From Schizochytrium sp. TIO01 (taxonomy: Eukaryota > Sar > Bigyra > Thraustochytrida > Thraustochytriidae), in NCBI GenBank assembly GCA_004764695.1, contig SMSO01000025.1, forward strand, positions 5,262,362-5,326,361: a DNA stretch of 64,000 bases, read 5' to 3'. The position numbers and the translations under genes are program-made. Below are positions 72 to 27,246 of this stretch, in pieces (position 1 is the stretch's first letter; every line of letters starts with the position of its first letter). The notes under the pieces were generated by a model. That model ran no database searches, was not told where the DNA came from, and saw only the letters and a program-made list of their open reading frames with translations.

Positions 72-2804
72 ATGCTTCATGTTTGCCTCATACTCGTAAT
101 ATTCTGTTGCAAAGGGGTAGTTTCTCAAAGCACCCTTCAATATCGTCTGACAATACGAGACTTTCTACCAAGTCATTGTCTTCGTGCGTCAGAGTATGAA
201 TCTTGGTGGGAATACTCTTATTATCGTGGTCTTAATGATACTGTGTATGAGGAATTTGAGACCCTTCCAGATGACTTTTATGCCAACAGAACTGGGCTGA
301 TTGACTTCTCAGATTGGTACGGGCCTTCCTATGTTGGACGCGAAAACGACATTCTCGTTAAACATTATTGTCCTTATTGGACAAAGGGGATGCGCGCAGG
401 TAACATCAGCGGGCATCCTGATTTCGAGGCAGCTACAAAAAGTCTTGAAGATGGACCATCAAATTGTACTTATGGAGGAGCTTCCCAGACATGTGGCGTT
501 GCCACATCTGTCATCAAGACATCCATGAAACTAGCAACTTCTGGCTTACCAAAACTTCAATACTGTGATGATGATGATATGGCTCGCTGTGGTAAACGTA
601 ACAATAAGTACTTGACATCTCGAGGCAAGTTCTTTCATTCATGGTACAATGATGACTCCAAGTATAACAAACGTATAGGTGTCACCATTCCACTAGAGTC
701 AGACGATGAAGGGACCTTTACTTATGCATCGTCGGAATTCTTTCCCATGCAGTCATACAATAAGCTTGTTTTTGAAGAAACATATCCTGATCCTCAGCGA
801 GCTCCAATTTGGCCAAGTGCAATTCGTGATTTCCACCAACAGCACTACTGGTTTACTACTGAATTCCATTCGTACTTTGAGTATTCCGGAAACGAAACCT
901 TTCGCTTTATGGGTGATGACGACTTTTGGGCTTTTATTAATGACAAATTAGCGATTGACCTTGGTGGCTTGCATGGTAATGTTGCTCAATCCATCAAATT
1001 GAGCGACTATAGTGGCCCAGAGTATCTCAATTTAACTGTTGGAGAAGTCTACAGTTTTTCAGTTTTTCATGCAGAGCGTCACTTTAGTGCTTCGAACTTT
1101 AGGATTGATACCACGATTTCGGAGGCATGCAATGTTGCTAAGCCCGGGTCGGCGTCAACAGCGTTTTCTCTTTTGGAATCTACGGAGGCTACCCTTGCTG
1201 TGAGTAATTCTGTTGAAATCTTACCTTCCGGCATAGTGCAGCTTAGCAATAGTTCGTTAGGAGAATACTCTACCTGGCTTTTTACCAAAAATCAGCAAAA
1301 CATTGGTGCAGGGTTTGTTGCAACTTTTACATTTCAAATTCGAAACGAGGCCTCTGTAGAAGGTATCGCTTTTGTAGCTACAAGACGCCCTGAAGGTCTA
1401 GATAACATCCCTGTTGCTACTGGCAGCGGACTTGGATTTCGTTTCCTAACGCACTCTGTTGCTGTTGCGATTGATATGTGTAGCGATCGTAACAGTAGTG
1501 AGGATGCATGCGAGGAGCAAACGGTTCGTATCCAATACCCTGATGATCCAGAGGATACTAATGAAAGTGCCAACGCTTACACCCGTGTATATGATGGGAT
1601 TATGCGCAGTCTTCGCTACAGTGATACGGAAGGCAATCCAGAAGTCCACAAGGTGCGTATTGAATACTTGCAAAGGCCAGATTGGCTCCAGGTTTACATT
1701 GATGACAGTCTCTATTTACGGCAAACAAACTTTGATCTCGAAGATATCATTGGTGGCCGAGATGCATACATTGGCCTTACAAGTGCAACATCCGCAGGGC
1801 GGGAAGGTACTCTTGAAATCTTGGATTTCACTCTTGAGACGGTTGCTGTAGAAGCAACCAAAACCGAAGCAGGGAATATCCTGCCGGATGCAGAAATGCA
1901 AACAATATATGGTGATGGCAAGCACACCGCTGGATTTACCCTCCAAACACGTGATATGTGCGGCAACGACGTGCAGAATGGCGGTGTTTCAGAACTCATG
2001 AAAGCATGGTATATCCCTGTGGGCACTGCTATGGATGCTGACGAGTCCCTCCGGCGGCTGCTTCTGGCCAACGGGACCGATGATGATTGGTTCATCTATC
2101 CTGACGATCGTGTTGAGGCTGAGATCGTAGACAACTTAGATGGATCATATACAGCAAGCTTTGCCAGTACAGATGCTGGTTTGTATGCATTGTATGCTTG
2201 CTTTGGAGATGGATGTGGGTATAACTGGACTTCAACTGATATTGAACCGCTAGATAATAGCTCATTTTACAGTCACGTGGATATTGCTGTTCTAGTAAAT
2301 CCGCTTACAGCGTCCCCGACGCACGCGCCACAGGCTTATGTTCCGGTGTCTGGGAACGACACGGTAATGATTAAGTACGCTTCTATCGGGGGTGGAATTG
2401 CAGGCCTTCTGCTTCTCTCCGCTTTGCTATTCGTATTTGTATTCCGGCGTCGTTGGCGCCATGATAAGGGCTACATTGAGAATGGCAAGCTTTATAACCT
2501 GGAGAGGGCTGTGGAGTATAACCCAAATGATGAGTACAACGTTGTTACTCGCATGGTGATGGACTCTAGCGCCAAGCTGCAATATGAGCGATCAAGACTT
2601 ACTCCAGGAGATGGAGCGGGAGACATTACAGCTTTAACGGTTCAAAATCAGGAACTGCAGGAACAAATCCGCGCTGAGAAGCAGCGCAAACAGCTTTTGA
2701 CCTCAGGAAGCTCCAGACTTTCTCGTATGCTGGGTCGCTCAAACAAGCAAGGTCGAGCCCAACGAAAAGAATTTCATGTCGATGCTGAGGATAGGCCTCA
2801 ATAA
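72..2804 (+). CDS. Fibro-slime/lectin-like type I membrane protein, copy 1
   Basis: A 910-residue predicted cell-surface protein, the first of three tandem paralogues. A hydrophobic signal peptide (about residues 1-18) is followed by a fibro-slime/PA14-like region (about 25-352) with the motifs RDFLPSHC, GHPDFE and GDDDFWAFIND (near 281), and then HAERH. Next come a concanavalin/L-type-lectin-like beta-sandwich (about 395-600, with GIAFVATRR, SVAVAIDMC and AYIGLTSAT) and a filamin-like Ig repeat (about 610-745, with RDMCGNDVQNGG and DNLDGSYTASF). A Thr/Pro-rich stalk leads to one transmembrane helix (about 771-793), a basic RRRWR stop-transfer and a tail of about 115 residues with a heptad-like stretch. 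The family domains suggest carbohydrate or matrix binding at the cell surface; the ligand is unknown. It is clearly diverged in DNA from copies 2 and 3. The ATG at 72 opens the signal peptide. The stop codon lies inside an AATAAA hexamer. Confidence 0.85.
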   Translation: MLHVCLILVIFCCKGVVSQSTLQYRLTIRDFLPSHCLRASEYESWWEYSYYRGLNDTVYEEFETLPDDFYANRTGLIDFSDWYGPSYVGRENDILVKHYCPYWTKGMRAGNISGHPDFEAATKSLEDGPSNCTYGGASQTCGVATSVIKTSMKLATSGLPKLQYCDDDDMARCGKRNNKYLTSRGKFFHSWYNDDSKYNKRIGVTIPLESDDEGTFTYASSEFFPMQSYNKLVFEETYPDPQRAPIWPSAIRDFHQQHYWFTTEFHSYFEYSGNETFRFMGDDDFWAFINDKLAIDLGGLHGNVAQSIKLSDYSGPEYLNLTVGEVYSFSVFHAERHFSASNFRIDTTISEACNVAKPGSASTAFSLLESTEATLAVSNSVEILPSGIVQLSNSSLGEYSTWLFTKNQQNIGAGFVATFTFQIRNEASVEGIAFVATRRPEGLDNIPVATGSGLGFRFLTHSVAVAIDMCSDRNSSEDACEEQTVRIQYPDDPEDTNESANAYTRVYDGIMRSLRYSDTEGNPEVHKVRIEYLQRPDWLQVYIDDSLYLRQTNFDLEDIIGGRDAYIGLTSATSAGREGTLEILDFTLETVAVEATKTEAGNILPDAEMQTIYGDGKHTAGFTLQTRDMCGNDVQNGGVSELMKAWYIPVGTAMDADESLRRLLLANGTDDDWFIYPDDRVEAEIVDNLDGSYTASFASTDAGLYALYACFGDGCGYNWTSTDIEPLDNSSFYSHVDIAVLVNPLTASPTHAPQAYVPVSGNDTVMIKYASIGGGIAGLLLLSALLFVFVFRRRWRHDKGYIENGKLYNLERAVEYNPNDEYNVVTRMVMDSSAKLQYERSRLTPGDGAGDITALTVQNQELQEQIRAEKQRKQLLTSGSSRLSRMLGRSNKQGRAQRKEFHVDAEDRPQ

Positions 2805-2805
2805 A
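2800..2805 (+). terminator. AATAAA hexamer overlapping the stop codon of copy 1
   Basis: The TAA stop at 2802-2804 lies inside an AATAAA sequence. If this served as the poly(A) signal, the 3' UTR would be very short. It may equally be a chance match, since no downstream element was identified. Confidence 0.25.
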
Positions 2806-5800
2806 AATCTGATGTGCATGAACGCTAGCTACAAGTCTCAAAACGTCGATCGCTTTCGCTATTTTCTGGGTCTCTAAAGCTCTCTCTACAATTTTGTTGT
2901 TGCTTACTATTGTTGCTGGCCTTCAGTCCTCGTTCATCCATTACCACCTGGTGGGAGCTGCTTCATAACCAGGCGGCCAGGTTTCCATCATTTCCGAATG
3001 ATTGCCTCCACGTTCTCAGTTTATATAGGCAGCGGCTGTACCTCCTATTTGTGTATTTGTACTTTCCTCCAAAACTCTGAACTAAAATCTGCAGCGAATT
3101 TGTACGTCGTTTGCAACCACTCTCTCCAGCCAAATGGTAACCCTACAGATCTTTCCACTTGCTCAAAAACTCAAGCAACGATATGCTGTATTTTACAGCA
3201 TTGGTCTGCAACCCAAGCTTTGGGTTGAATGATTCCAGGCGTGAGCACCATCTTACGCTTGGACTTCATCCTCAGAGTAGTAGCGCCTGACTAGCGAAAG
3301 TGGCGCACCGCGTACCTTAAAATCTACAAAAGTCAATCCAACGCAGTGCAGGTAGGTAGAGTACCTCCCTGCATCAATTCTATGAGCTTTTACTAGGCTC
3401 AGCCTGATCGTGAAATGAAGGTGCCAAAAAGGGGCGCACGCCTCTGCTAGCGGCCATCTTCATAAAAGTTTGCCATTGATATATACTTATATTCCTACAA
3501 CCAAATGCTAACTTTCTGGCAAACAATTTGCACACCACTTTGAAAGCTGTTATCGTTATTCATGACGATGGACTAAAGCTCTAAGAAATCGACATTAGCC
3601 CCGTTTCGAACATGTCACTGGCAGGCTGTTGAAGGGCTATTTAAGCCTCTGGGCACTCTTGAGTCAATCTTGATTGAAAGTCGTGTTCAACGCTTTCGTC
3701 TCCTTTCTTCAACAGCTTTGCTGCGCGTGAATTGCAGGTCGCAAGTTTATCCTGTTTCTTATTCGTTTTCACTAATTGTAAACAATGTTTTATTCTGCCT
3801 ACGTTTTATTTCGCTGCATTCAGCTTGGAGTTCAAGTTTTAAAGAGTTTGAAGGAAGAATCAGATGGGTTTTCTTATTCTTACCATATTTTATTCTTATT
3901 TTACGCAGAAGAAGATCATAAGAAAGCAACTTTCTTAGTTCCATTATGTTCTCAGTTCCATTGTGCAAAGAGGTCACCCGCACAACAGCAGTATCCATTT
4001 GGCCTATAGCGTTTCGGTAAGAGTTGAAGACAGGCGTCTTTAAAAAAAGGTTGCGTCTGTTGCTTATAATAGGCACGCGTCCTATGGCTCTCATGGCATA
4101 CACCACTTTCTATTCTCTAAAGCCAAATTTGACTTTAAAGTCCAGCTTCAGCGAGATTCGCCCCACGCCATGATCCATCGTTCTCTAAAATCTACGCGAG
4201 CAGCTCTGCTGCAACCTGTACGGTGCCTTTATGTACTGATGGTGGTGGTGGTGGTGGTACTGGCGTTGATAGCTAAAATTGTGTGAAAGGTGAGCGTGGG
4301 AAGTGAGGTTGTTCTTACCAACTCTTCTTCATTAAACCCCCCAAAAAACAAAAAAAAAAACGTGCATCGATTCCACCGTCTTCTATGCAAAGCTATTTTA
4401 GGCTCGCCATATCGAGGTAAGGTCAGTCTTCCCTCCACGTAAGCCATGGCTCCCCAGCTCCCGCAACAGCTCTGTCCCGAAGCCCGAATGAAACAAGCTA
4501 TTGGCGGTACAATCTTCGAGTAGTCCATCTCGAATTCCTTTTCATTTAAGTTTTAAAAAGTAAATCAGAATATATATTATTGGATAAAGAAAAATTAGTC
4601 AGTCTCTGCGCTGATACTTGGACTCCTATTGAAACTATTATATTATTTTCTACGGTCACACCACACATAACTAGCCAAATGGACAAAGAACATTAACAAA
4701 CTACGGCTTTCACGCCTGAGAATGCAAGGGGGTTCTCTAGCAAATCCTTGCTACTAGTGTGAAAAAAGGGCAAGGGTCACAGCTTGCGCCGGCTGATCGA
4801 TGGGAAATAAGCACCAACGCTGAAGTGGCACGTGTTCCAGACGCCAATTTTTAAAGATTGTGGCCTTCTTTTTATTTTATATATATATTTTTACTATTTA
4901 TTTTAAAATAAAACTACTAATAGTGACATTATTTCTTCCCGAGTACTTCCTCATCAGCCACAACTTACTATTTCCCCATCTAAGAGTGATTGTAGGTACG
5001 ACATCAAGCTCAAGCTCAACTCCCTCGTGTTCAAAATCGCAGCAAGCGCTTGGGGAGCTCTATCCTCTGAGCATGGCGAGCAACGCAGCACGTGCAGCTC
5101 AAGCATAACTAAATGACTATCCCTACTACTAGAATGAACAGAGTAGAATCAAATTCATTTTTTTAGCGTTGCAGTTGCTACTATTGTTATTGTCAAAGAA
5201 GACGTATTTTAAAACCCCAGAGCAACGCGAGCCTAGGCTTAAAGCCATCCAGGTAAATGTTGATTGATGGTGAAGCGCGCATCGCCTGCTCGAACCTTCC
5301 ATTGCAAATGCTCATGAGCATCGTATGTTTATTTGTCGTTCGATTAGTTTGGCGGTGCAAGGGGTTCACCTTTCCAGTTGAATTTAATGTATTCCATCTT
5401 CAGCTTTAAACGTGCTGTCAAAACTTATCTTAACTCCTTTAATCATCCATTACATGTTAAGGAGAGGGTTCTCGATGCCTTTTAGACGTGCGCGCGCATC
5501 GTAGTGTTGTGTGCAGCTCCATCAGGTTTATATTACAACACACGTTATTCTGTATTCAAGTTTACTATGCAAAAACAGTGCTACAGACCTTTAGATGACT
5601 ATTATGCAACTTGGACTTCATGCAGAAATAAAACACAGTGTGAGAAAGAAATATTTTGTTCATAAGAATGAATGAAAAACATTTTAAAAAAATACTCCTA
5701 CGTCAAGTCAGCAAAACGGAATGCACGCGCGAGGATCCCGGGCCTGCAGTGTCGCACGAGCGTGGGTAAGCCTTTACAACGTGCTGAAAACCACTTGGGT

Positions 5801-6099
5801 CTGTCACTAGCATACCGGGCTCGGAACAGCATTTGCGAAGCCTCAGTGGGCATACGAGGCCTTGCTGAGTTGCTTGAATTGGGTCGATTGCTGTCGACCT
5901 CGTCTTGAAAGCTTGGTTGTCTCCTGGCTTTGGTAGAGTGATTTGAGCGAGGAGATATTGCATTTGGCTTTCCAGCGAAACTGGACTCGCGAAGACCCGA
6001 TCCAAGAGGTAGAGTGAACTTTGTTGGTTTGTTTTTTGCCGGGTTTAGGCTAAAACTTTCGTTATTTTCGGTGGCGGTGGCCACAGGTTGCATGCACAG
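2805..6099. other. Intergenic spacer between receptor copies 1 and 2
   Basis: I see no convincing gene in this 3.3 kb stretch; open frames are short and match nothing I recognise. It contains a group of hairpin-forming sequences at 3185-3373, a short GGT repeat near 4241-4258, one GTAGGTAC octamer at 4992 and A/T-rich patches near 4560-4600 and 4870-4920. The last 400 bases are more G/C-rich and probably hold the promoter and 5' UTR of copy 2. Confidence 0.6.
3347..3373. repeat. 27-nt inverted repeat (hairpin)
   Basis: Two 12-nt arms separated by GAG are complementary at 11 of 12 positions, giving a compact hairpin. It lies about 540 bases after the stop of copy 1, downstream of smaller hairpins at 3210-3228 (8-bp arms, 3-nt loop) and about 3235-3265. 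Its function is unknown; it could be an RNA structure or the remnant of a mobile element end. Confidence 0.5.
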
Positions 6100-8874
6100 A
6101 TGATGGCTCCAGTAAAGCTTTCGACTCTGATTCTAAGCACAGTTGTCTACCTATGGACAGCAACTGCATACACGCCTCCAAGCACACTGACTTACCGAAT
6201 TACATACCGAGACTTTCTTCCGTCACATTGCCTAAATGAAACACTTTACACGGCGTTGTGGGAGTACTATGATTCCTCAGGAAACTCGTATTATACAGGC
6301 ATGAGAGATACGATGTATGCTGATCCAACCTTGCTGCAGAGTACATGGTATACGAATAACATCGATGAAGCCATGGATTTGACCAACAGTTATGGACCAG
6401 TTTTTTCAACTGCTGTTAAAGTAGTAGAATACTGTCCATATTGGTCCAATGGGATGAGCAATTACACACTGAGCGGACATCCAGATTTCGAGGCAGCTGC
6501 AAAAAGCAAAGTTTCTGCGGTGTCAAAGTGTTACAAAGGAGGCGCCGCAAAGGCAAGCTGCTCTGGAGTTACATCTGTAATAAAGCCAAATTTGACCATC
6601 GCAACATCTGGACTGCCTAAAATTACTTACTGCAATGATACTTACAACTCACGCTGTGGCTCCTATGGTAGCAAGTATACAACATCACGACAACAATACT
6701 TTGACGCCTGGTATAACGACAATGCAAAGTATAATAAGCGCGTGGGACAAGAATTGACTGTGACTCTTGACGAGACGTCCGGCCAGTACCAGTACAGTTC
6801 AAGTCATTTTTTTCCACTTAATAAGTACGATGAAGAGCGTAACGAAGGTCTTTATAGCGATGGCCCGGCTGTCACAGCATATCACTACCCAGACCCCAAT
6901 CGGGCTTATGTTTGGCCAAACTCGATCAAGAACGCTTCATATAGCCACTTCTGGTTCACGACAGAGTTTCACTCTTACTTCAGTTACAGTGGCGATGAAT
7001 ACTTTAAATTCACTGGAGATGACGACCTCTATGTTTTCATCAATGGGAAAATTGCGATTGATTTGGGTGGAACACACTCGGAAGCAACCGATGATCTTTA
7101 TTTGATCGACTATGCTGATGAAGACCATCTCAACCTTACCGTTGGTGAGGTCTACCAGTTTTCGATCTTTCACGCCGAACGACACACAACCGCATCAAAC
7201 TTTAACCTCTACACCTCAATCTCGGAAAATTGCAACATCGCTCGTCCCAACTCTGGCTCAGTCTCGGTAGATATCTCCAACACAACAAGTACTGAGATCA
7301 CTCTCAGTGAAGGCGCTGCTCAGTTCGAAAATGGGACTATCCAGCTCTCCAATGCAGCAAATACTGCTCAAGACTTCTCAACATATATGTTTACAACTAA
7401 TCAGCAAAACATTGGGCCTGGCTTCATTGCCACTTTCTCTTTTCGCGTCCTCGATGAAGCAGCAATCGAGGGTCTGGCCTTTGTCGCCACACGACGCTCT
7501 GAGGGACTCACGAACATCCCCGTCTCTACTGGATCAGGTTTGGGATACCGGTTCATTTCCAACTCTATTGCTGTTGCTATTGATATGTGCACAGATCGGG
7601 CTGAAGGCCGAGACTGCTCCGGGCAGCAGGTCAGTCTGCATTATCCCGATGATGCTGATGATACTAATGAGGATCTCAGCTCAACACTGCGGGTCTACGA
7701 CTCTGTACTACGCAGTCTTCGCTACACGAATGCTTCTAACGTACCTGAGACTCACGTCGTTCGTATCGAATACCTAGAACGTCCTGATTGGTTACAAGTG
7801 TACATCGATGACAGCTTGTATCTCCGGCAAACAAACTTCAACCTTGAGGATATCATTGGCGGTCGTGACGCGTACATTGGTCTCACTAGTTCGACGCCAA
7901 GCTCAGATGTGGGTACTTTGGAGATTTTGAGTTTTACTTTGGAGACTATTGCGGTGGAGGCGAACTCTACAGTCGGTGTAGACTTGACGGAGGATGCGGA
8001 AACGTTGACGCTGGTTGGTAACGGGAAGAGTTCCGCTGGGTTCACGATTCAGACGCGTGATCTTTGTGGGAATGACGTGGAGAACGGTGGTCTATCATCG
8101 TACTTCAAGGCTTGGTATATTCCTACTGAGCAGGAGAGCAGTGGGCGACGCTCTCTAAGTAACTCCACAGAGACATGGGTATTGTACACGGATGATCGTG
8201 TCGATGCAACAATTCAAGATAATCTAGATGGTACTTACACTGCTCTTCTTAGTACAACAGAGACCGGTATGTATGCTCTTTATTCTTGCTTTGGCTTGGA
8301 ATGTGGGTACAATTGGACCAGTTTAGAGCCGCTTGATAGTGAATCTTACTATGGTCAAGTAGCTCTCGCTGTGCGTGTGATTCCTGTAACTTCCCAACCA
8401 ACTCAGTCTCCTATTGAGTATACGGTTGCTACAGGCGATGACTCCAAGGTAGCTATGTATGCAGGTATAGGAGGAGGTGTGGCTGGCGCTGTGCTGCTTT
8501 GCTCTGTGTTTGCGCTTCTTGCGCTTCGAAGGCGTTGGCTTCGCGAAAAGGGTTATATTGAAAACGGCAAGTTATACCGGATGGACCGGGCTGTGGAATA
8601 TGATCCCAATGATGAGTTTATGGTAGTGACACGAATGGTGATGGAGTCTTCTGCAGATTTGCAACGTGAACGTGCCAAGAGGGGTCCAGATGACGGTTCT
8701 GATGCCATCTCGAATTTAAAAGATGAGAACCAGCAGCTTCAAGAACAAGTTCGTTTGGAAAAGCAGCGTGCTCAGCTTGAGAACTCGAAAGGTAGTCGTA
8801 TTTCTCAACTTTTTAAGAACAAGCGCCAGCAAAATGCTCGCAGAAAAGAGTTCAATCAAGATGGATATGTATAA
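6100..8874 (+). CDS. Fibro-slime/lectin-like type I membrane protein, copy 2
   Basis: The 924-residue second paralogue has the same architecture as copy 1: signal peptide (MMAPVKLSTLILSTVVYLW), fibro-slime region with RDFLPSHC, GHPDFE and GDDDLYVFINGKIAIDLGG (from about 306), HAERH, lectin-like sandwich, filamin-like repeat, stalk, transmembrane helix (about 786-809), RRRW and a conserved tail with heptad leucines. Many Asn-X-Ser/Thr sites suggest heavy glycosylation. The open frame extends upstream to a TTG at 6088, so I place the start at the ATG at 6100; 6103 is also possible. From 7126 to 8489 the DNA is nearly identical to copy 3, and again at 8611-8704, while the 121 bases between, covering the transmembrane and juxtamembrane part, are diverged. 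This patchwork suggests gene conversion. Probable role: surface adhesion or recognition; the ligand is unknown. Confidence 0.85.
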   Translation: MMAPVKLSTLILSTVVYLWTATAYTPPSTLTYRITYRDFLPSHCLNETLYTALWEYYDSSGNSYYTGMRDTMYADPTLLQSTWYTNNIDEAMDLTNSYGPVFSTAVKVVEYCPYWSNGMSNYTLSGHPDFEAAAKSKVSAVSKCYKGGAAKASCSGVTSVIKPNLTIATSGLPKITYCNDTYNSRCGSYGSKYTTSRQQYFDAWYNDNAKYNKRVGQELTVTLDETSGQYQYSSSHFFPLNKYDEERNEGLYSDGPAVTAYHYPDPNRAYVWPNSIKNASYSHFWFTTEFHSYFSYSGDEYFKFTGDDDLYVFINGKIAIDLGGTHSEATDDLYLIDYADEDHLNLTVGEVYQFSIFHAERHTTASNFNLYTSISENCNIARPNSGSVSVDISNTTSTEITLSEGAAQFENGTIQLSNAANTAQDFSTYMFTTNQQNIGPGFIATFSFRVLDEAAIEGLAFVATRRSEGLTNIPVSTGSGLGYRFISNSIAVAIDMCTDRAEGRDCSGQQVSLHYPDDADDTNEDLSSTLRVYDSVLRSLRYTNASNVPETHVVRIEYLERPDWLQVYIDDSLYLRQTNFNLEDIIGGRDAYIGLTSSTPSSDVGTLEILSFTLETIAVEANSTVGVDLTEDAETLTLVGNGKSSAGFTIQTRDLCGNDVENGGLSSYFKAWYIPTEQESSGRRSLSNSTETWVLYTDDRVDATIQDNLDGTYTALLSTTETGMYALYSCFGLECGYNWTSLEPLDSESYYGQVALAVRVIPVTSQPTQSPIEYTVATGDDSKVAMYAGIGGGVAGAVLLCSVFALLALRRRWLREKGYIENGKLYRMDRAVEYDPNDEFMVVTRMVMESSADLQRERAKRGPDDGSDAISNLKDENQQLQEQVRLEKQRAQLENSKGSRISQLFKNKRQQNARRKEFNQDGYV
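7126..8489 (+). repeat. Near-identical tract shared with copy 3 (12300-13663)
   Basis: Over 1364 bp the two copies align without a gap at a constant offset of 5174 bases. By eye I count about 14 scattered differences plus one cluster around 7180-7195. Synonymous sites are conserved too, so protein-level selection alone cannot explain it. A second shared tract follows at 8611-8704. Confidence 0.9.
8611..8704 (+). repeat. Second identical tract shared with copy 3 (13785-13878)
   Basis: These 94 bases in the cytoplasmic-tail coding part are identical to 13785-13878 at the same 5174-base offset, and are separated from the longer tract by 121 diverged bases. Confidence 0.85.
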
Positions 8875-11246
8875 ATATGCCATTGAACACCTCAGGTTGC
8901 GAGCTGTTATTTTTTAGGCCTTGACGCTGCTCGAGCGTTAAGTATGAGTATTGTGTCTGGTTGTTTATACACATACTAAGCGGGCTTTCAGATTGGTTTA
9001 AATTTACGTCTTGCTTCTTGACTTCCTGTCTTTTCCTGCCTTTCTTTTTTGTGGATTAATGTTGCTTTAATGAATTTCTGTTTTTGTTTTATCTTGTTTA
9101 ACAAGTTAAAGTTCTATTTCGCTTGCGGTAAATATCATTTTCTTTAATATTGCCAGGCTAAAAGAACATAGATGACTTTCAACGACTCGTAATGCAAAAA
9201 GATCAACACCGGGGTAATCGATGATTCTTCAACGTGAGTCACTCAGTGGGGCGTAGTTATAGATACTTCAAAAATAAAATTAATAAACTTAATAGATAAA
9301 CGATACGATAACCATGATGATTCATTATTAATGTTATTTTTTAACAAGATAAAAACATATTCATTTAATATAAATCTTAATTTTATAACTATTAGCTTAT
9401 AACTAATATTTCTAACTCTAATAAATAAAGATCAGAGCTGGTTTGAGACCTCGGGCCCAGCTGGCTTGGCACAGGAGCGCACGCCGCATAAAGGTGTCTC
9501 GTGCAGGTCTCCGAAGAAAGTTCATACTACAGATGAAACTAGTCGCTTCTCTTACTCTAACAATTCATACTTTACTAGATATAGTACTATATGCCTCAAT
9601 CAACGTGCATCACCTAGATGGTATGGGAAATGAAATCTACTGAAGCTTTTTTAAAAGTTAAACTTGATCATCTACTCGAAGATAGATGAGATCTTCACGT
9701 GCTAATCTATCTTCAAGTGGTCAGCATCGGCAGCTCCTCACGGCAATCATCAAATGCTTTGCTACCTGGTCAATATACGACGGCTGCGTTTGATAGAGGC
9801 AAGGAGATGGCGATGAACAGAGCCACCTTCTTTTCATACCTCATCGCTCATCGCTATCATCCTGGCCATCATCATCAACATCACCGGCACGACTTTCCAA
9901 TTCTGGTCCTTTTTAGCAACGAACTTGTAAAGGGGAGGGTTACATCAACACAGTCGACATCTCGTGCTAACATATCCAAGGCTTCAAGTGCAGGCTCTAC
10001 ATCAGCCGGTCGGTAAATTTCGCATGACGAAATCTGCACGTGCGCAAGGATCGCATGTATATGACTATAATTTAATTTTAATTAAAAGTGTGCACTAAAT
10101 CCAATGAATAAAAACTATATAAAATGAATAATCGTAAAAGTTGAAATAGTAAAATCAATTATAATAAGCGTTACAATCGCTCATTCTAAAAAAGGTTATC
10201 GACAACAGCTTGTACTTCAGGAGAAGAAGCAGAACAAGAACAGAGCACACTAGGGTTACTACACCGTGGGAGTTACAAACCTTGCTTTGAGTTGAGTGGT
10301 TAAAATGGTCGTTGTTCGGGATGCAGTTTCGAGTTAGTGTTTTGAGTCTTTTTACTTATTACTAAAAATAAGCTTACAGTGGCTATGGCCATGCACACGT
10401 TCTCACTATAGGCTGCGACTGAGGAGGTTCCCTTGCGCACTTGGTGGCTCTTAGCTATAGAATCGCAGAACCAATCCATCAAGGCCGAGAAGAGCACCAA
10501 TTGCCTTTCGGGAGTACATCTTACCGGCAGACGCGGACGTCCGGTGTGCGAAAAAGTATTATTGAGACATCCTATAAAAATAAAGGCCGTGCATAACTTT
10601 AAGTTGAGCTGAAAACATAGATTACCCCTCCAGCAGCAATGTTTTCAATCAACTCCTGCTGTCCTTGCTACCAAAATTGTTGCTCGTGTTGGGGATCAAT
10701 GCAATTTATGTAAGGTCTCTGACCAGACCAGTATTCATACCTATCTCAATTCGATTCGAGTTTTGTGTAGAAGGTACCTCCTGCCTACCTATCTTCTATG
10801 TGTGGCACGAGAAATCCACCTGTGCATTTTACTTTCCTCTGTCCATCTACATCCACTTTCTTTTTAGTCTGAAAAAGTATGCAGTAGTAGGTATCAATAC
10901 TTGTGCATAACAGTATTGCACATTAGTTTAGTTGTTCAGTCGTTTTTAAAATTAAAGAAGCATTTTTATTATAAATTCAGGACAGACTCGGAGAACAAAA
11001 CGAAAAAGGACTCGGCGAAAAATGGCACGTGGAATATAAGATTGCAAACCTCCCAGCATAACCATTTTGAGCGTATGGACCACGCGGTTTTGGTTTTACA
11101 AGCCAGCCGAGGTCAGACTCTGATCTGCGTAGAAACCTGAGGGCATAACGAGGGGTCGTAGGTCGCGGGAGTAAGCAGAGTGCACCCACCTTCGAAACTT
11201 TGGGAGGCTTCAGAAATACAACGAGTGCAAGTCAAAGGGAGCCAAG
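8875..11246. other. Intergenic spacer between receptor copies 2 and 3
   Basis: No gene is supported in these 2.4 kb. The first half is A/T-rich, especially 9260-9440. The open frames around 9440-10016 and 10665-11140 are short and unlike any family I know. A TATAAG sequence at 11035-11040, about 210 bases before the copy 3 start, is a possible TATA element. Confidence 0.55.
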
Positions 11247-14048
11247 ATGCATACTTTGTTGCCACAGCTAATACGGCCAGCGTTACCTGTTAGGGCTCTT
11301 CTGCTTTGTGCAGTAGTGTGCAGTTTGCGAAACACCGAAGCTTACGTGTCGCCTGACACTGTCACATACAGACTTACATTTCGGGACTTTCTCCCAGCAC
11401 ACTGCATAGGTAGCGATGAATATGCAGCAGCTTGGGAATACGCAAATTACGTGGGGATGAGAGATCTTGTCTACACAAACACATCAGTAATCCCTGATGA
11501 TTGGTATGCCAATAACATTAGCAAGGCTATGGACCTTAACAGTAACAATGGTCCAGAAATGAGTACACAATGGTACTATGGTAATGTGAAAGTCAATAAT
11601 TATTGCCCATATTGGACAAAAGGCATGTCAAATAAAACAATCAGTGGTCACCCAGATTTCGAGTCAGCATCGAATGGTATTTCAGGCCGTGTTTCTAAAT
11701 GCTACTACGCTGGACAATACAATTCTTGCACTGGGGGTCTCACTTCAATTATTAAACCATCCCTCACGGTTGCAACCTCGGGTCTACCCAAAGTAACTTA
11801 TTGCAATGACACGTCCAACTCAAGATGCGGCTACGATAGCACCTCCAGTGTGTACAGCACATCACGTCAGCAATACTTTGACGCCTGGTACAATGACGAC
11901 TCCAAGTACAACAAACGTGTTGGCCAGGAATTAAGTTTGACAAAGGGCTCAGATGGTCTCTATGCCTACGAATCATTCGAGTTCTACCCGCTGAATAAAT
12001 TTGATGCAAATCGTAGTGATGGACGCTACACAGATGGTCCAGTCGTCACGGAAGAGAATTATGCGGACCCTAGTCGAGCGTATGTTTGGCCAAATTCCAT
12101 GAGGGACGTAGGTTGGAACCACTTCTGGTTTACAACTGAATTTCACTCGTACTTTAGCTACAGTGGAACAGAGCAGTTAAACTTCACAGGAGATGATGAT
12201 CTTTGGGTCTTCATTAACGGAAGGCTCGCTGTAGATCTTGGAGGTAAACATTCTGAAGAAACTGAAAGCATTGTACTGGCTAATTATGCTGACGAAGATC
12301 ATCTCAACCTTACCGTTGGTGAGGTCTACCAGTTTTCGATCTTTCACGCCGAAAGGCATTACTCCCAGTCAAACTTTAACCTCTACACCTCAATCTCGGA
12401 AAATTGCAACATCGCTCGTCCCAACTCCGGCTCAGTCTCGGTAGATATCTCCAACACAACAAGTACTGAGATCACTCTCAGTGAAGGTGTTGTTCAGTTC
12501 GAAGATGGGACTATCCAGCTCTCCAATGCAGCAAATACTGCTCAAGACTTCTCAACATATATGTTTACAACTAATCAGCAAAACATTGGGCCTGGCTTCA
12601 TTGCCACTTTCTCTTTTCGCGTCCTCGACGAAGCAGCAATCGAGGGTCTGGCCTTTGTCGCCACACGACGCTCTGAGGGACTCACGAACATCCCCGTCTC
12701 TACTGGATCAGGTTTGGGATACCGGTTCATTTCCAACTCTATTGCTGTTGCTATTGATATGTGCACAGATCGGGCTGAAGGCCGAGACTGCTCCGGGCAG
12801 CAGGTCAGTCTACATTATCCCGATGATGCTGATGATACTAATGAGGATCTCAGCTCAACACTACGGGTCTACGACTCTGTACTACGCAGTCTTCGCTACA
12901 CGAATGCTTCTAACGTACCTGAGACTCACGTCGTTCGTATCGAATACCTAGAACGTCCTGATTGGCTACAAGTATACATCGATGACAGCTTGTATCTCCG
13001 GCAAACAAACTTCAACCTTGAGGATATCATTGGCGGTCGTGACGCGTACATTGGTCTCACTAGTTCGACGCCAAGCTCAGATGTGGGTACTTTGGAGATT
13101 TTGAGTTTTACTTTGGAGACTATTGCGGTGGAGGCGAACTCTACAGTCGGTGTAGACTTGACGGAGGATGCGGAAACGTTGACGCTGGTTGGTAACGGGA
13201 AGAGTTCTGCTGGGTTCACGATTCAGACGCGTGATCTTTGTGGGAATGACGTGGAGAACGGTGGTCTATCATCGTACTTCAAGGCTTGGTATATTCCTAC
13301 TGAGCAGGAGAGCAGTGGGCGACGCTCTCTAAGTAACTCCACAGAGACATGGGTATTGTACACGGATGATCGTGTCGATGCAACAATTCAAGATAATCTA
13401 GATGGTACTTACACTGCTCTTCTTAGTACAACAGAGACCGGTATGTATGCTCTTTATTCTTGCTTTGGCTTGGAATGTGGGTACAATTGGACCAGTTTAG
13501 AGCCACTTGATAGTGAATCTTACTATGGTCAAGTAGCTCTCGCTGTGCGTGTGATTCCTGTAACTTCCCAACCAACTCAGTCTCCTATTGAGTATACGGC
13601 TGCTACAGGCGATGACTCCAAGGTAGCTATGTATGCAGGTATAGGAGGAGGTGTGGCTGGCGCAGTGTTATTTTGCTCTCTGCTTGGCCTTCTCGGCATC
13701 CGGAGACGCTGGCATCGTGAGAAGGGCTACATCGAGCACGGCAAACTATATCGAATGGAGCGTGCTGTGGAGTATGACCCACATGATGAGTTTATGGTAG
13801 TGACACGAATGGTGATGGAGTCTTCTGCAGATTTGCAACGTGAACGTGCCAAGAGGGGTCCAGATGACGGTTCTGATGACATCTCAAATTTACGTAGTGA
13901 GAATCAGCAGCTTCAAGAACAAGTTCGTTTGGAAAAGCAGCGCGCCCAGCTTGAAAACTCGAAAGGCAGTCGCATTTCCCAATTATTTAAGAGTAAGCGT
14001 GAGCAATTCGGACGCCGAAAAGAGTTCAATCAAGATGGTTATGTATAA
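11247..14048 (+). CDS. Fibro-slime/lectin-like type I membrane protein, copy 3
   Basis: The 933-residue third paralogue opens at an ATG in good context (GCCAAGATGC). A signal peptide precedes a fibro-slime region with RDFLPAHC, GHPDFE and GDDDLWVFINGRLAVDLGG (from about 315). HAERH, the lectin-like sandwich, the filamin-like repeat, a stalk, one transmembrane helix (about 796-818) and the conserved tail follow. Its first 345 or so residues are only moderately similar to copy 2 (by eye somewhat over half identical), yet the region encoded by 12300-13663 is about 99% identical in DNA, as is 13785-13878. An AATAAA lies at 14177. The architecture supports a surface lectin or adhesin with a signalling-capable tail. 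The contrast of variable head and homogenised body suggests recent conversion between neighbours, perhaps with selection for diversity in the outer domain. Confidence 0.85.
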   Translation: MHTLLPQLIRPALPVRALLLCAVVCSLRNTEAYVSPDTVTYRLTFRDFLPAHCIGSDEYAAAWEYANYVGMRDLVYTNTSVIPDDWYANNISKAMDLNSNNGPEMSTQWYYGNVKVNNYCPYWTKGMSNKTISGHPDFESASNGISGRVSKCYYAGQYNSCTGGLTSIIKPSLTVATSGLPKVTYCNDTSNSRCGYDSTSSVYSTSRQQYFDAWYNDDSKYNKRVGQELSLTKGSDGLYAYESFEFYPLNKFDANRSDGRYTDGPVVTEENYADPSRAYVWPNSMRDVGWNHFWFTTEFHSYFSYSGTEQLNFTGDDDLWVFINGRLAVDLGGKHSEETESIVLANYADEDHLNLTVGEVYQFSIFHAERHYSQSNFNLYTSISENCNIARPNSGSVSVDISNTTSTEITLSEGVVQFEDGTIQLSNAANTAQDFSTYMFTTNQQNIGPGFIATFSFRVLDEAAIEGLAFVATRRSEGLTNIPVSTGSGLGYRFISNSIAVAIDMCTDRAEGRDCSGQQVSLHYPDDADDTNEDLSSTLRVYDSVLRSLRYTNASNVPETHVVRIEYLERPDWLQVYIDDSLYLRQTNFNLEDIIGGRDAYIGLTSSTPSSDVGTLEILSFTLETIAVEANSTVGVDLTEDAETLTLVGNGKSSAGFTIQTRDLCGNDVENGGLSSYFKAWYIPTEQESSGRRSLSNSTETWVLYTDDRVDATIQDNLDGTYTALLSTTETGMYALYSCFGLECGYNWTSLEPLDSESYYGQVALAVRVIPVTSQPTQSPIEYTAATGDDSKVAMYAGIGGGVAGAVLFCSLLGLLGIRRRWHREKGYIEHGKLYRMERAVEYDPHDEFMVVTRMVMESSADLQRERAKRGPDDGSDDISNLRSENQQLQEQVRLEKQRAQLENSKGSRISQLFKSKREQFGRRKEFNQDGYV
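12300..13663 (+). repeat. Near-identical tract shared with copy 2 (7126-8489)
   Basis: Partner of the tract in copy 2, ungapped. It covers the end of the fibro-slime region, the lectin-like and filamin-like domains, and the stalk, and stops abruptly within the transmembrane-helix codons. Confidence 0.9.
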
Positions 14049-16496
14049 TGGAAGCTGGAGATTATTATTTCCAGCTTATTTCTATATTTGTTTTAAAAGT
14101 TTTGTTGTTTTTTCCATTCTTGAAATATGCTCAATAGTATAATTATCCTTTCTGAGCTACAGGTTTTTGGCAAGCAAATAAAATGCAATCTGAGTAATCG
14201 CATGCGCCAGCTTGTGTTTCAGCCGCACATGATTTTACTCGATAAGTAATTTACGCTGAGGCGCAAACATTAACGTGTTCGTGTTTGCTCGTTTCATTTC
14301 CGTGGGCAAATTAACTTATATGTCATCATGCGAGAGGTGCGCTGTCTATCGTTAGTTTTTCCTCTTACAAATGGTATTGATGATGTAGGCGAATTCTCGA
14401 GTCGTTCTTAGTGGCTACAGGGCTTCCGGCTCCTCTTGATCCTTTTAGTTAGGTGGTAAAAGCCAAGCAGAAGCGTTGATTTAAAAATGAAAGCCTAGAA
14501 TCTAGTATACATAGTCTCTGTGTGATGATCTTATTTTCAGATGGTGCGGTTGCCCAACTTTGGGGATGCCAGTATAAAGATAGGCCTAATAGAATAATGC
14601 TATATATTATGATATCGTTTATTGCCTTCCAACTAGTGGGAGGCCTTTTATTTCTCCGCGCCTCGTCTCTTATATGAAGCGTAGGTGGGCTCTTCAAGTT
14701 GTGCAATGCCTCACCTTCATATGGAGGTCTGCGACATGGCCTCTGGCCCCAGCTTGAAGGAACACCGTGCAGGAGAAGAGCAAAAACCTACGACGGACCG
14801 CTCGATCGCTTGCACACCCAAGAAGTTGGCAATTGTGATCTTAATCGGAGGAATAAGTACTAGCACCACCTATTCGATATTGTTTGCTGGCACTTCTTAC
14901 TGCCGGGCCCAGTTCGGGAATGGCTTGAGCAGCTACAGTCTGGGATCACTGATCGTTTGGGCGAGTATGCAAAGTTGTGAAGCTTCCCCCAGGAATGGAT
15001 TCGCGACAAACTTTAATACCGAAGAGGCCCAGGCTCGACTTACGTGGTAACGGAATACGTTTCTCGTTATAGTATAGCAACCTAGAGCAGCTAGTAGGTA
15101 CTTTGATCCCTGGAGGTCCTCTGGAATCCATGTTGCACCCGATGAAGTAGCGCACCAACATGGGCAGCACCACCGCCAAGAGATTCAGTCTTGCTAAGAG
15201 TCTTGCTGAGACCAGGTATAGTTCAAATACTAAATACCCAGTACCAGGTCCTACATACCTACTATTCAAGAGCACCGCTGAAGTTTGTTGCTATACTTTT
15301 TGCGCACACATCGTGCACAACAATTTCAACAAACCAACAGACAAGGAAAAAATTCAATCAATGTGCATGCTCGCAGCCAACCGGGTGGCAACATGGACTG
15401 CAAGCCCTTGCCACCACCAACTACGCTATTGATCCTTCATTCTTCGTGTTGATGACTCTAGGGTCCGCCAAATCCCTTATATAATGGCATCAGGATCATC
15501 TCTCTCTCCTTTTGTTTTTGCACGTGCTGGCATTTTTTCACTTTCAGAGTTCTTTCTTCTCATTCCCTCATTTTTTAGTTAGCTCTTACTGGACTCTACA
15601 AGCAACCACTATCAACCTCATCACCACCACGCGACATTGCCGAACCTGGAGTCTGCTCGCTAAGTCAAGCAACTAGTTCGACCCGGCCACCACCTTTGCT
15701 GTAAGAGCTACGCTGAGCCAGTGTACCCAGGGCTTGCTCGCTTGACGGCTCGTGAGCTCCGCTTTCGTTTCACTCCGCACGTGCACACACACTTTGTCCA
15801 CTGAGAGGATCGCAATCCTATTCAAACCTCAAATAGCCGGGTCTTTGCGCACTGCCGGCGCCACTTAGTCTAGCGAAGCAGGGCGTATCTGTGCTAGAGT
15901 CTTTGCTGTGAGGGTTAAGCTGGGGTCGGCAAACCTGCTTGAAGCGCAGTAGTGCGCGGCTGGGAGGAAAAGGGATTGCTGAGCACGCTCCCAAGATCAA
16001 GAGCAGGAGCATATTACTGGTCTCAAAAAGCATTCCTAGCGCTACTGCAGTGGGGGCCTAAGGTGTATGGGAAGGGTCCACGCGCGTTGGAGATCAGCAA
16101 GCTTGAAGGTTGCAAAACGTGAACGTTGAGCAGGCACTCTTGCTTTTTACTGGAGCGCTGATTTCAATTTAAGAAGACAAGGAGGACTGCGAAGCTCAGG
16201 GACACAGAAAACAAAGGTTGAGTCAGGTGAAATATTCAATCGTGTTTCCACGATTGAAAGCCCCCAGTCAGACTGCTGCTGTTCTTGCTGCTTCGAGAAC
16301 GGCTGTGGCGTTCGATTGGGGTCAACAAAAAGTAAGAGCCTCGGCGTTTCTTTATTCTCGTCGTTATTGTGTGGTTTTGATTTGCACGTTTCGAATATCT
16401 AAATAGCGCATTCAACAGAACTTTGAGCGACTCATTTCCAAGTTCGTCGCCAAATCCAGTTTTGTGGGTGAGCTTATCAATCTCAGATTCAATATC
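14049..16496. other. Intergenic spacer before the 7TM-RGS gene
   Basis: No convincing gene in 2.4 kb. An AATAAA at 14177-14182 may end the copy 3 transcript. A frame from an ATG at 14706 to 15050 (114 codons, one hydrophobic stretch) resembles nothing I know and lacks supporting context. One GTAGGTAC octamer is at 15094. The last 700 bases are mixed in composition and probably contain promoter and 5' leader. Confidence 0.5.
14177..14182 (+). terminator. Possible poly(A) signal of copy 3
   Basis: An AATAAA hexamer lies about 130 bases after the copy 3 stop codon, a plausible distance for a polyadenylation signal. It is assigned on motif and position only. Confidence 0.35.
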
Positions 16497-18086
16497 ATGA
16501 GTGGAACTTCAAACAATACTGATGTTTGCGAAACTGCAGAGCATGACACCCTCTATATGAGTGACCCAATGCGGTACCTAGGTCTAGCTCTATTCATATT
16601 TGCCGCGGTTACGATGGTGGCCTCGCTTGCCCTCTGGATACGACGAAGAAGTCATGTGATTTTAGCAAAACGGAACTTTGGACTTACTTTGATCACGGCA
16701 ATTGGAGTTCTCATGCAAATCTCGGGAGATGGCCTAGCAAATTTCATCGGTCGAGAGAAGTACCCATGTGATGTCTCACTCTGGCTTGCTCTGTTGTATC
16801 TTCCATTGGCCGCAGGGCCTACCGCATCGCGCATCGTGCTTACTATGTACCGTGTTCGTTTTGGAAAGCTCATTTACGAAGATTTTGATCAAAGTGAAGT
16901 CGATATTGATCCAGACTTTTATGAGATGGGCTCCTTCCCAGCGCAGATTCGCGCCTTTATCAAAAGCTTTTTCACATGTTCCTGTGATACCGTTCGAGTA
17001 ATTGACTCCTTCAACGACATCAAACCTAGACTTCCACGTTCGAGACTGATGTCTCGCGCTTTTGCATACTCTGTATCATCCTCCTCAACCGGAGAAGGCA
17101 AGTTAGTATCCCAGACTTCTACAATTCCTGAACAGGTGACTGTTCTAGCACGGCCACGCCGTCTTTCACATACTCAAGCCATGTTCTTTGGTAAATCCAG
17201 TGCATATGGCTTCATTCTTCAGATAGTTATTACCGCTGTGTGCATAGCCATTGGTGTCGTGCTAAGCATTAAGAGTGACTCACCATTTGGAGGCAAAGGT
17301 TGCTACGGCTGCACAATTAATGGTTGGATTTTTATTGCGCTGGTAGTCACAGGAGCTATTGTTGTTGCGATAGTGCTTCCGGGGACCATTATTCTTCGCA
17401 ATGTGCATGACTCTATTGGGATTGCTCGTGAACTGCGTCTCCTCATGGTCTGCGGTATCTTCGTGCTACTTGGCGTTTTACTTTCAATGCACGACCCTGG
17501 AAATGCTCGCGCCGAGGGAAAATTTGATTGGCTCTATATCGTTTCTATAGCTGGTATCGCTGTCCATTGGTTGGACTGTGTTCATCCTGTATACCTTACG
17601 TACAGGGACACCCAGCTTCGGCTGACGCACAAGGACTCAACGACGCTCTCAATGGTGCTCAAAGACCCCGAAGCAAAGCAGATTTTTCAAGCTTACCTAA
17701 TTACTGAGTGGAGTAGTGAGAATGGGCTCTTCCTCGATGCTGTGCGGCGCTTCCGTACAATGCACGAGTTAGCTGCAACCCCGGATCTTGTATTGCGAGC
17801 TGTTGACATGTTTAATACCTTCATCAAAGAAGGTGCAATTCTAGAAATTAATGTTCCAGCATCGATCAGACGAACCTTGCGCCTCACCATCGAACCTTGG
17901 CAGACATTCATTGAGAATGATTCGCCATTTTTGGCTACAATGGAAAAACCTGACATTGGTCTTTTCGATGAGGCCTATGAGGAGATTTACATGCTCGTTG
18001 AAACAGACTCCTTCCCGCGCTTCCAGCGGTCAAATATGTATGCAGAAGCCAAACAGTCCTTGCGGTCCAACAATAGTGTAGCATAA
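16497..18086 (+). CDS. Seven-transmembrane receptor with C-terminal RGS domain
   Basis: A 529-residue membrane protein. Several hydrophobic helices occupy about residues 25-345, with a long cytoplasmic loop (about 120-205) between the third and fourth. The C-terminal part (about 375-510) looks like a regulator of G-protein signalling (RGS) domain: it opens with LKDPEAKQIFQAYL, continues with the SSENGLFLDAVRRF helix, and ends with EEIYMLVETDSFPRFQRS. RGS domains accelerate GTP hydrolysis by G-alpha subunits, so a 7TM-RGS fusion would act at the plasma membrane as a self-limiting receptor, as in plant AtRGS1 and many protist homologues. The open frame begins upstream at a GTG (16464); the ATG at 16497 is taken as the start. 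The ligand cannot be inferred. Confidence 0.8.
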   Translation: MSGTSNNTDVCETAEHDTLYMSDPMRYLGLALFIFAAVTMVASLALWIRRRSHVILAKRNFGLTLITAIGVLMQISGDGLANFIGREKYPCDVSLWLALLYLPLAAGPTASRIVLTMYRVRFGKLIYEDFDQSEVDIDPDFYEMGSFPAQIRAFIKSFFTCSCDTVRVIDSFNDIKPRLPRSRLMSRAFAYSVSSSSTGEGKLVSQTSTIPEQVTVLARPRRLSHTQAMFFGKSSAYGFILQIVITAVCIAIGVVLSIKSDSPFGGKGCYGCTINGWIFIALVVTGAIVVAIVLPGTIILRNVHDSIGIARELRLLMVCGIFVLLGVLLSMHDPGNARAEGKFDWLYIVSIAGIAVHWLDCVHPVYLTYRDTQLRLTHKDSTTLSMVLKDPEAKQIFQAYLITEWSSENGLFLDAVRRFRTMHELAATPDLVLRAVDMFNTFIKEGAILEINVPASIRRTLRLTIEPWQTFIENDSPFLATMEKPDIGLFDEAYEEIYMLVETDSFPRFQRSNMYAEAKQSLRSNNSVA

Positions 18087-25455: not shown

Positions 25456-27246
25456 TTACATCTTCTCGTAAGCGGGGCCACCACCACCCTCGGGGACGGT
25501 CCAGCGAATGTACTCGTTGGGCATCTTGATGCTGCACATCTTGCAGTGAAGGCAGTTGGAGGCGTTGATAACAAGCTGGGGCTTGCCGTTCTCATCGTCC
25601 GCGTATTCGTACACTTTAGCAGGGCAGAAGCGCTGCTCGGGGCCGGCGTATTTGGAAATGCTGACATCCGGCATGTCCTTGAGCTCGGGCTTGATCTTCA
25701 AGTGAGCAGGCTGGTCAGCCTCGTGGTTGGTGCCACTGGTGGAAAGGTTGGCCAAAAGGTCAAAAGAGATGACACCATCGGGCTTGGGGTAGTCGATGGG
25801 GGTGTGCTTGTCAGCAGGCTCGGTGGCGTCGCAGTCGCGCATCTTGCCGTGCTTGGAGAAAGTCCAGGGCTCCATGCCGCGGAGGACGAAACCGGAGATA
25901 CCGGAGTAGATGACACCGGCGTAGAGACCCCACTTAAAGGCAGGGGCGTAGTTACGGACGGACTTGAGCTCGTCGTAGACCCAGGAGCCCTTGAGCTTGT
26001 CGGAGTAGGTGGTGACCTCAGCGGCCTCACCCTCCTCGATGTTCTCGAGGGCCTCGTACACGGCCTCGGCAGCGAGCATACCGGACTTCATGGCGGTGTG
26101 CGAACCCTTGACCTTGGGCACGTTAAGGAAACCGGCGGAGCAGCCAACAAGAAGTCCACCAGGCATGGTGAGCTTGGGGATAGCCTGGAAGCCACCCTCG
26201 TTGATGACGCGGGCACCGTAAGACATGCGCTCACCGCCCTCGAGGTACTGCTTGACCTTGGGGTGGTGCTTGAAGCGCTGGAACTCCTGGTACGGGGAGA
26301 GGTACGGGTTCTTGTAATCAGCACCGACGACGAAGCCGATGAAGATCTCATCCTCACCGTAGTGGTACATGAAGCTGCCACCGTAGGTGCTGGAGTCAAG
26401 GGGCCATCCGAAGGTGTGCTGGATGAGACCGCGCTGGTGCTTCTCCTTGGGGATGCGCCAGATTTCCTTGACACCGAGACCGTAGCTCTGCATGTCGCTG
26501 TCCTTGCGGAGGTCGTACTTGGCGATGACCTCCTCGGAGCAGCTTCCGCGAGCACCCTCGGCAAAAATGGTCTGCTTCGCGCGAAGCTCCATGCCGCGCA
26601 TGAAGGTGTCCTTGACCTCGCCGGCCTTGGAGATACCCATGTCTCCGGTGGCAACACCAACGACGGCTCCCTTGTCATTGTAGAGAACCTCTGCGGCGGG
26701 GAAGCCAGGGTAGATTTCTACACCGAGCTCCTCAGCCTTGGCGCCGAGCCAGCGAACGAGGAGGTTGAGGGAGATGATGTAGTTGCCGTGGTTGTGGAGG
26801 GTGGGCGGGATGAGCAGCGAGGGGGCCTCGATCGCGCTCTGGTCGTTCATGAGGAAGAGAAACTTGTCCTCGCCGGCGGGGGTGGGGTCGTCACCAAGGG
26901 CGCCCTGCTCCTTCCAGTCCGGGAAGAGCTCCGCAAGTGCGGTGGGCTGGAAGACGTTACCGGAGAGGATGTGGCTGCCGACCTCGGCACCCTTCTCGAC
27001 AACGCACACGCTGACCTCGCGGCCCTTTTCGGCCTCGAGCTGCTTCAGCTTGATGGCAGCAGACAGACCGGCAGGGCCGGCACCGACGATGACCACATCG
27101 TACTCCATGGCCTCGCGCTCCATGTTGCGGGGATCATCCTCGTCAGCGACGGAGCTCAGGCCGCGCACGGCGAACCGCACGGGCGACTGAACAGGGGAGC
27201 GGCGGCCCAGGCGGGCTGCCGCCGAGCTCACGCGGCGCATCATCAT
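25456..27246 (-). CDS. ETFDH: Electron transfer flavoprotein-ubiquinone oxidoreductase, mitochondrial
   Basis: A 596-residue enzyme, full length for the family. It passes electrons from reduced electron transfer flavoprotein to ubiquinone at the inner mitochondrial membrane, linking fatty-acid and amino-acid oxidation to the respiratory chain. An Arg/Ser/Ala-rich presequence (about 1-32, ending RGLSS) fits mitochondrial import. The FAD motif YDVVIVGAGPAGLSAA is at 49-64. Four cysteines for the 4Fe-4S cluster are at about 541, 565, 568 and 571 (RFCP, NCLHCKMC), followed by the family ending VPEGGGGPAY. After the last Cys the usual acidic positions read SIKMP instead of DIKDP. The three ATGs at 27246-27238 sit in good context. 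Codons strongly favour G/C at third positions, unlike most neighbours, suggesting high expression. This bias also creates a long antisense open frame, which I do not call. Confidence 0.95.
   Translation of the reverse strand: MMMRRVSSAAARLGRRSPVQSPVRFAVRGLSSVADEDDPRNMEREAMEYDVVIVGAGPAGLSAAIKLKQLEAEKGREVSVCVVEKGAEVGSHILSGNVFQPTALAELFPDWKEQGALGDDPTPAGEDKFLFLMNDQSAIEAPSLLIPPTLHNHGNYIISLNLLVRWLGAKAEELGVEIYPGFPAAEVLYNDKGAVVGVATGDMGISKAGEVKDTFMRGMELRAKQTIFAEGARGSCSEEVIAKYDLRKDSDMQSYGLGVKEIWRIPKEKHQRGLIQHTFGWPLDSSTYGGSFMYHYGEDEIFIGFVVGADYKNPYLSPYQEFQRFKHHPKVKQYLEGGERMSYGARVINEGGFQAIPKLTMPGGLLVGCSAGFLNVPKVKGSHTAMKSGMLAAEAVYEALENIEEGEAAEVTTYSDKLKGSWVYDELKSVRNYAPAFKWGLYAGVIYSGISGFVLRGMEPWTFSKHGKMRDCDATEPADKHTPIDYPKPDGVISFDLLANLSTSGTNHEADQPAHLKIKPELKDMPDVSISKYAGPEQRFCPAKVYEYADDENGKPQLVINASNCLHCKMCSIKMPNEYIRWTVPEGGGGPAYEKM

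Follow-up and report, generated by a model that had tools for sequence, protein, structure and literature searches.

Three tandem genes and their architecture

The window analysed here, the whole stretch of 64,000 nucleotides from Schizochytrium sp. TIO01, has a GC content of 38 to 54% across 2-kb bins and contains three genes that all lie on the plus strand and, in the open-frame reading of the window, have no internal stops: gene A (72-2804, 910 aa), which encodes a predicted type I surface protein, and genes B (6100-8874, 924 aa) and C (11247-14048, 933 aa), both with the architecture of A. The start of gene B is placed at the ATG at 6100, with a TTG at 6088 likewise in frame. A, B and C are real, intact paralogues, in which a fibro-slime/PA14 head is followed by an L-type-lectin-like sandwich, a weakly filamin-like part, a stalk, a predicted transmembrane (TM) helix and a cytosolic tail.

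The fibro-slime core (843-1121 in A, 6946-7224 in B and 12123-12398 in C) belongs to a head that scores 88, 85 and 89 bits for A, B and C with the fibro-slime family TIGR02148 (curated cut-off 45) and 41, 32 and 37 bits with the PA14 family PF07691 (gathering cut-off 24). Among solved structures no convincing match for the head was found (best E 0.31). The lectin-like part (1278-1793 in A, 12603-13070 in C) gives lectin Pfam matches below the curated cut-off for A (E 5e-8) and C (E 5e-5), with none listed for B. A body profile of the nine members of the family introduced below (A to I) matched the solved legume lectin 7elv with an E of 7.5e-11, and two of these members, H and I, score 26.5 and 33 bits with the legume lectin family PF00139, both over its cut-off of 26.3; these profile matches indicate L-type (legume) lectin homology of the family body. 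Filamin is the least secure label of the architecture. The filamin-like parts lie at 1890-2207 in A, 8029-8277 in B and 13203-13451 in C, and with PF00630 the three proteins, taken singly, reach an E of 0.002-0.016 (16.5-19.5 bits), under the gathering cut-off of 26.9; a genome search with PF00630 returned 11 matches, none of them within A, B or C, and the body profile matched the gelation factor 1wlh with a whole-chain E of 7e-5 and an E of 0.87 for the best single stretch.

The predicted TM helix (about 2385-2441 in A, 8467-8523 in B and 13641-13697 in C) is followed by a tail of 115-119 residues (2445-2801, 8527-8871 and 13701-14045, respectively). A hydrophobic TM segment and a tail are present in all nine family members, as judged by hydropathy and alignment only, and every one of the seven fibro-slime-headed members carries 12-16 N-glycosylation sequons in its ectodomain, against 0-1 in its tail. 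The first-pass annotation had described three same-strand paralogues of one architecture, with a likely surface topology, and had called for a profile search of each domain. The head, lectin-like sandwich, stalk, TM helix and tail were borne out, the first by TIGR02148 over its cut-off and the lectin by way of the family profile and of H and I, and the surface topology continues to look likely; the filamin repeat stays below its cut-off and can be carried only as a weak assignment.

Other features of the window may be recorded here. Continuing downstream from C on the plus strand, the first long frame (16464-18083) encodes an RGS domain (E 1.9e-16), a module of G-protein signalling, and a frame of 651 aa on the minus strand (38813-40765) has a Frizzled-domain (Fz) match just below the cut-off (E 1.5e-6). 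An open frame of 590 aa on the plus strand (25546-27318) runs antisense over an ETF-QO gene (25459-27246, minus strand) and falls largely within the most GC-rich 2-kb bin (0.544); it is probably a by-product of codon usage.

A modular family in the genome

Searches with C of the genome, which comprises 64.06 Mb in 37 contigs, returned A, B and C together with D and E on contig C6, about 10 kb apart and on the same strand, as well as F and G on contig C24, H on contig C3 and, weakly and through its lectin part, I on contig C30 (E 6e-5). Counts of the family are lower bounds, with at least nine members of which at least seven are fibro-slime-headed; TIGR02148 was found at seven places in the genome, each over its cut-off. 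In member H the place of the fibro-slime head is taken by a vWA domain and PT repeats, and I consists of the lectin part, TM segment and tail only. An alignment of the nine tails has six invariant columns, and a genome query with the tail of C brought back eight of the nine members (the seven fibro-slime-headed ones and H), missed I, and gave one extra weak place (contig C34, 473847-474089, E 0.2) in a frame of 811 aa. A, B and C are part of a small modular family whose heads are fibro-slime, vWA or none.

The same genome holds matches to a PfaA-type polyunsaturated fatty acid synthase on contig C4 (608161-617209), split over two open frames of 1031 and 2172 aa. For this type of synthase one frame group with its neighbours exceeded the curated cut-off, which was exceeded in 0 of 14 control genomes, 11 of the 14 having matches below it; this makes a thraustochytrid or a near relative the likely host.

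Legume lectins have a sugar-site Asp and a metal-site Glu and Asp, and these positions were read in the lectin-like body. The sugar Asp is replaced by Glu in A-F, Tyr in G and Gln in H, and Asp is found only in I; the metal Glu is absent in all nine members, A-H retain the metal Asp next to it, and a Cys pair lies near the metal site in eight of the nine. The "lectin" of the body may be a matter of fold only. This pattern bears on a reading of the proteins as intracellular cargo or sorting receptors like ERGIC-53/VIP36, whose L-type lectin binds secretory glycoproteins. Such receptors would share with the family L-type lectin homology, a predicted type I topology and a single TM segment, and member I has nothing but lectin part, TM segment and tail; the sugar Asp and metal Glu are mostly replaced, and the lectin matches are to PF18483 and PF00139, with no ERGIC-type family listed for any of the nine proteins (E up to 1 for A-C, up to 0.01 for the other six). 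Members of the ERGIC-53/VIP36 class are not known to have a fibro-slime or vWA head or a long cytosolic tail, which likewise speaks against this role, and we regard it as improbable.

Mosaic divergence of genes B and C

Genes B and C alternate between near-identical and diverged stretches, and the transitions between them are abrupt and fall within the genes. The main tract (B 7195-8489, C 12369-13663, plus strand) has 13 differences in 1,295 nt and is a probable gene conversion; it spans the end of the fibro-slime core and the lectin-like and filamin-like parts up to the stalk, with edges taken from a three-state segmentation whose rates were chosen by the analyst. All 13 differences are transitions. 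Three of these transitions are clustered within 6 nt (7314, 7316 and 7319). Just upstream of the main tract, in the fibro-slime core, 54 nt are identical (B 7126-7179, C 12300-12353, plus strand), and they are followed, inside the converted region, by an island of 15 nt with 10 differences (B 7180-7194, C 12354-12368, plus strand), which encodes ERH-TTA-SNF in B and ERH-YSQ-SNF in C. After the main tract the TM region has diverged again (34/119), a second identical patch of 96 nt lies in the cytosolic tail (B 8609-8704, C 13783-13878, plus strand), and the end of the tail past this patch has 27 differences in 167. Nucleotide identity of the two heads is about 0.6, with the tail intermediate; synonymous divergence (pS) reaches 0.87 and 0.69 for the two parts of the head, falls to 0.04 for the lectin and 0.02 for the filamin part, and rises again to 0.18 for stalk and TM together and 0.46 for the tail.

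The longest identical run between B and C is 296 nt, a length that was reached in none of 1,000 site shuffles (maximum 69) and none of 300 codon shuffles (maximum 79). In the remaining 20 pairs of the seven fibro-slime-headed members identical runs are 9-18 nt long and none exceeds its own shuffle maximum; runs in the upper tail were those of AD, BE, CD, AE, BG, CF and DG, reached in 4, 6, 7, 13, 15, 17 and 1 of 300 shuffles, respectively. Homogenisation across the family is rejected, since a long tract occurs in one of 21 pairs only (B/C). Gene A, whose lectin and filamin parts are 0.56-0.61 identical to those of B and C and whose head is 0.46-0.63 identical to theirs, has diverged along its whole length, so that the "homogenised body" of the first-pass annotation applies to B and C and must be withdrawn for A.

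Trees of the head and of the body both contain ((B,C),A) and (D,E), with a support of 91/98 for D/E in the head tree and the other groupings starred, and the tail tree has no supported branch. Because the head and body trees agree on these groupings, the copy probably passed between existing sisters. The D/E tails are 0.40 identical and the E/B tails 0.47, though D and E are sisters in the head and body trees. The near-identity of the B and C bodies is most likely due to ectopic gene conversion, by which one was copied over the other, and the simplest account of the whole mosaic is at least two conversion events of different age. Most likely, the tandem pair of B and C is old, its body was recently homogenised, and its heads and non-coding flanks keep the old divergence; a blastn comparison of these flanks gave no match. 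Unequal crossing-over is unlikely as the source of the tract, because there is divergence on both sides of it and the flanks do not match.

To judge the divergence of the heads, identity was compared over six segments for every pairing of the seven fibro-slime-headed members (21 in all). In 20 of these pairs the fibro-slime core ranks first in conservation (0.49-0.68 vs. 0.33-0.62 in the lectin), the reverse being found in B/C alone (0.79 vs. 0.99), after conversion of the body. The N-terminal half of the head (0.32-0.54) lies below the lectin in 18 of the 20 other pairs and equals it in two, with a gap of 0-15 points (median 6) that is widest in the tandem pairs AB and AC (0.47 and 0.46 vs. 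0.61). Hypervariability of the head among paralogues is rejected for the fibro-slime core and weakly suggested for the N-terminal half. The B and C heads are old and constrained, with saturated synonymous sites and far fewer amino-acid changes (pN 0.28 and 0.13 in the two head parts). Among windows of 20 codons no head window in BC, AB, AC or DE has pN > pS, a test of little power because synonymous sites are saturated; over the whole length such windows number 3/90 in BC, 1/88 in AB, 1/88 in AC and 1/92 in DE, and each of those in BC is due to a single change that lies within the converted tract or beside it. Within the limits of this test, nothing points to diversifying selection.

These comparisons weigh on the idea that the proteins are allorecognition or kin-discrimination receptors, with heads diversified by selection, partners on other cells and bodies kept uniform by conversion. 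PA14-type heads do work in recognition elsewhere, as in Myxococcus TraA, which is described as having a polymorphic PA14-like domain, a little-varied remainder and chimeric alleles (PMC3820747), and in yeast, where recognition by heterotypic mannan binding is described (PMC7156268). The sole divergent island of the converted region falls in the ERHxxxSNF loop of the head, and the low identity of the N-terminal head half points the same way. The conservation of the fibro-slime core, the low amino-acid divergence of the saturated B/C heads, the lack of head windows with pN > pS (a test of low power) and the absence of a homogenised tract from the other 20 pairs all tell against diversified heads on uniform bodies. 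A diverged head joined to an identical body in neighbouring genes can arise by conversion of the body, and on its own it does not tell whether the head is under diversifying selection. The "variable head" that had been taken as a sign of allorecognition is not borne out, and allorecognition for A-C is unsupported by these comparisons of paralogues within one genome and quite unlikely.

Candidate ligand sites, known systems and a probable surface role

A GDDD motif is invariant in the alignment of the seven fibro-slime heads and would fit a flocculin-type Asp-Asp Ca2+ site, as described for the PA14 domains of flocculins and TraA (PMC3325183). With this motif kept and most sugar and metal residues of the lectin replaced, we assign ligand binding to the head and a spacer role to the body. 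The 15-nt island belongs to the ERHxxxSNF loop, whose Glu369 follows the Asp run of C at a distance of 51-53 residues, and the proposed third ligand of TraA, Glu237, is found 53-54 residues after the Asp pair (PMC3325183); as a lead for further work, the island may sit in a ligand loop. A second lead is a dibasic RR(x)L motif, present in one copy per ectodomain in all seven fibro-slime-headed members (protein positions 661 in A, 683 in B, 692 in C, 695 in D, 695 in E, 727 in F and 606 in G) and in neither H nor I. It lies in a variable-length loop of the filamin-like part (in F in a nearby loop) and occurs in 6-19% of shuffles of the seven ectodomains, the seven proteins being related to one another. 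Diatom silaffins are described as losing RXL domains by proteolysis, perhaps likewise Sin1 (PMC5525289), and cleavage of the ectodomain at RR(x)L is possible.

None of the known systems compared matches the family beyond the PA14/fibro-slime head. Nearest in working principle is TraA of Myxococcus xanthus, then come the flocculins and Psi factors, and all of these are closer than Tgr. Like A-C, TraA has an N-terminal secretion signal (seen here by hydropathy only), a PA14-type head, a further extracellular region and surface anchoring, which is predicted for A-C (PMC3325183, PMC3820747), and pairs with diverged heads and a near-identical remainder occur (PMC3820747). The TraA head varies from strain to strain, and this polymorphism is proven to set partner specificity (PMC3820747). 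Cys-rich repeats and a MYXO-CTERM tag set TraA apart from A-C, and the architecture described for it includes no lectin, filamin or cytosolic tail; neither the repeats nor the tag had a Pfam or NCBIfam match in A-C (E up to 1). Yeast Flo5 likewise has a PA14 head, with an Asp-Asp Ca2+ motif to which GDDD here may correspond, the homology being at the level of the PA14 superfamily only. Flocculins are GPI-anchored wall adhesins and, unlike A-C, are not known to have a lectin sandwich or a cytosolic tail. The Psi factors of Dictyostelium (PsiA, DicA1/PsiF) are eukaryotic extracellular proteins containing PA14 (PMC3325183), but they are secreted signals with PF00526 Cys-rich repeats, a family with no match in A-C. 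TgrB1 and TgrC1 of Dictyostelium resemble A-C in membrane placement and are polymorphic recognition proteins (PMC11088635). A-C differ from them in their same-strand tandem arrangement and have no detected Tgr-type domain, in agreement with the first-pass view that the two are not homologous. Tgr extracellular domains are of the TIG/IPT type, and the domain search of A-C gave no TIG family (E up to 1).

Bacterial fibro-slime proteins belong to the same head family, with at least 509 relatives among at least 595 candidate stretches, of which 80, mostly titled as myxobacteria or other deltaproteobacteria, were kept. The body or tail of the family was found at none of these 80 loci (matched strand, frames of at least 80 aa, E up to 0.01), and a bacterial origin of the whole protein is rejected on this count. 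Viral carriage of the head was also considered and dropped, as the 80 pattern matches in viral contigs included no relative. The literature searches, and passages of one genome paper on a labyrinthulomycete, contained no described PA14/fibro-slime surface protein of labyrinthulomycetes; no publication was found that pairs a legume lectin with fibro-slime, or a PA14 domain with a stramenopile and a lectin, and none on fibro-slime that concerned a protist, judged by title.

The reading we favour, and consider moderately probable, is that of a modular family of single-pass surface glycoproteins, serving as adhesins or receptors, with a Ca2+/glycan-type head, a constant spacer and a coupling tail, in which the body of B and C was converted. 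The fibro-slime/PA14 head would be the ligand-binding end, probably Ca2+-dependent, with glycans or polymers of the wall as targets; the constant spacer would consist of the lectin-like and filamin-like parts, and the common coiled-coil-like tail would couple the protein to the cytosol. Ectopic, non-crossover conversion would recently have made the bodies of B and C near-identical. A narrower form of this explanation, in which the proteins are substrate or matrix adhesins whose heads attach to polysaccharides, either those of food particles or those in the wall or net of the organism itself, and whose paralogues differ by target or life stage, is a serious possibility, if somewhat short of an even chance. 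Fibro-slime proteins of Fibrobacter have been called cellulose-binding (PMC4668043), labyrinthulomycetes use ectoplasmic nets to attach to substrates and to penetrate them (PMC10101102), and fixed, distinct ligands would fit heads that are old and constrained. A more far-reaching and rather unlikely variant would have exchangeable heads on a common lectin-like body with its own signalling tail, serving cell or substrate recognition, with conversion unifying the constant part and selection keeping the ligand loops of the heads; a hint of such selection on head-specific loops would be the 15-nt island that the ERHxxxSNF loop has retained.

For our favoured reading of surface adhesins or receptors, the analysis provides a defined family of nine genes, at the least, for probable surface receptors, whose tail was matched with confidence nowhere else in the genome, and for A-C a role in the adhesion of cells to one another or to a substrate is reasonable.
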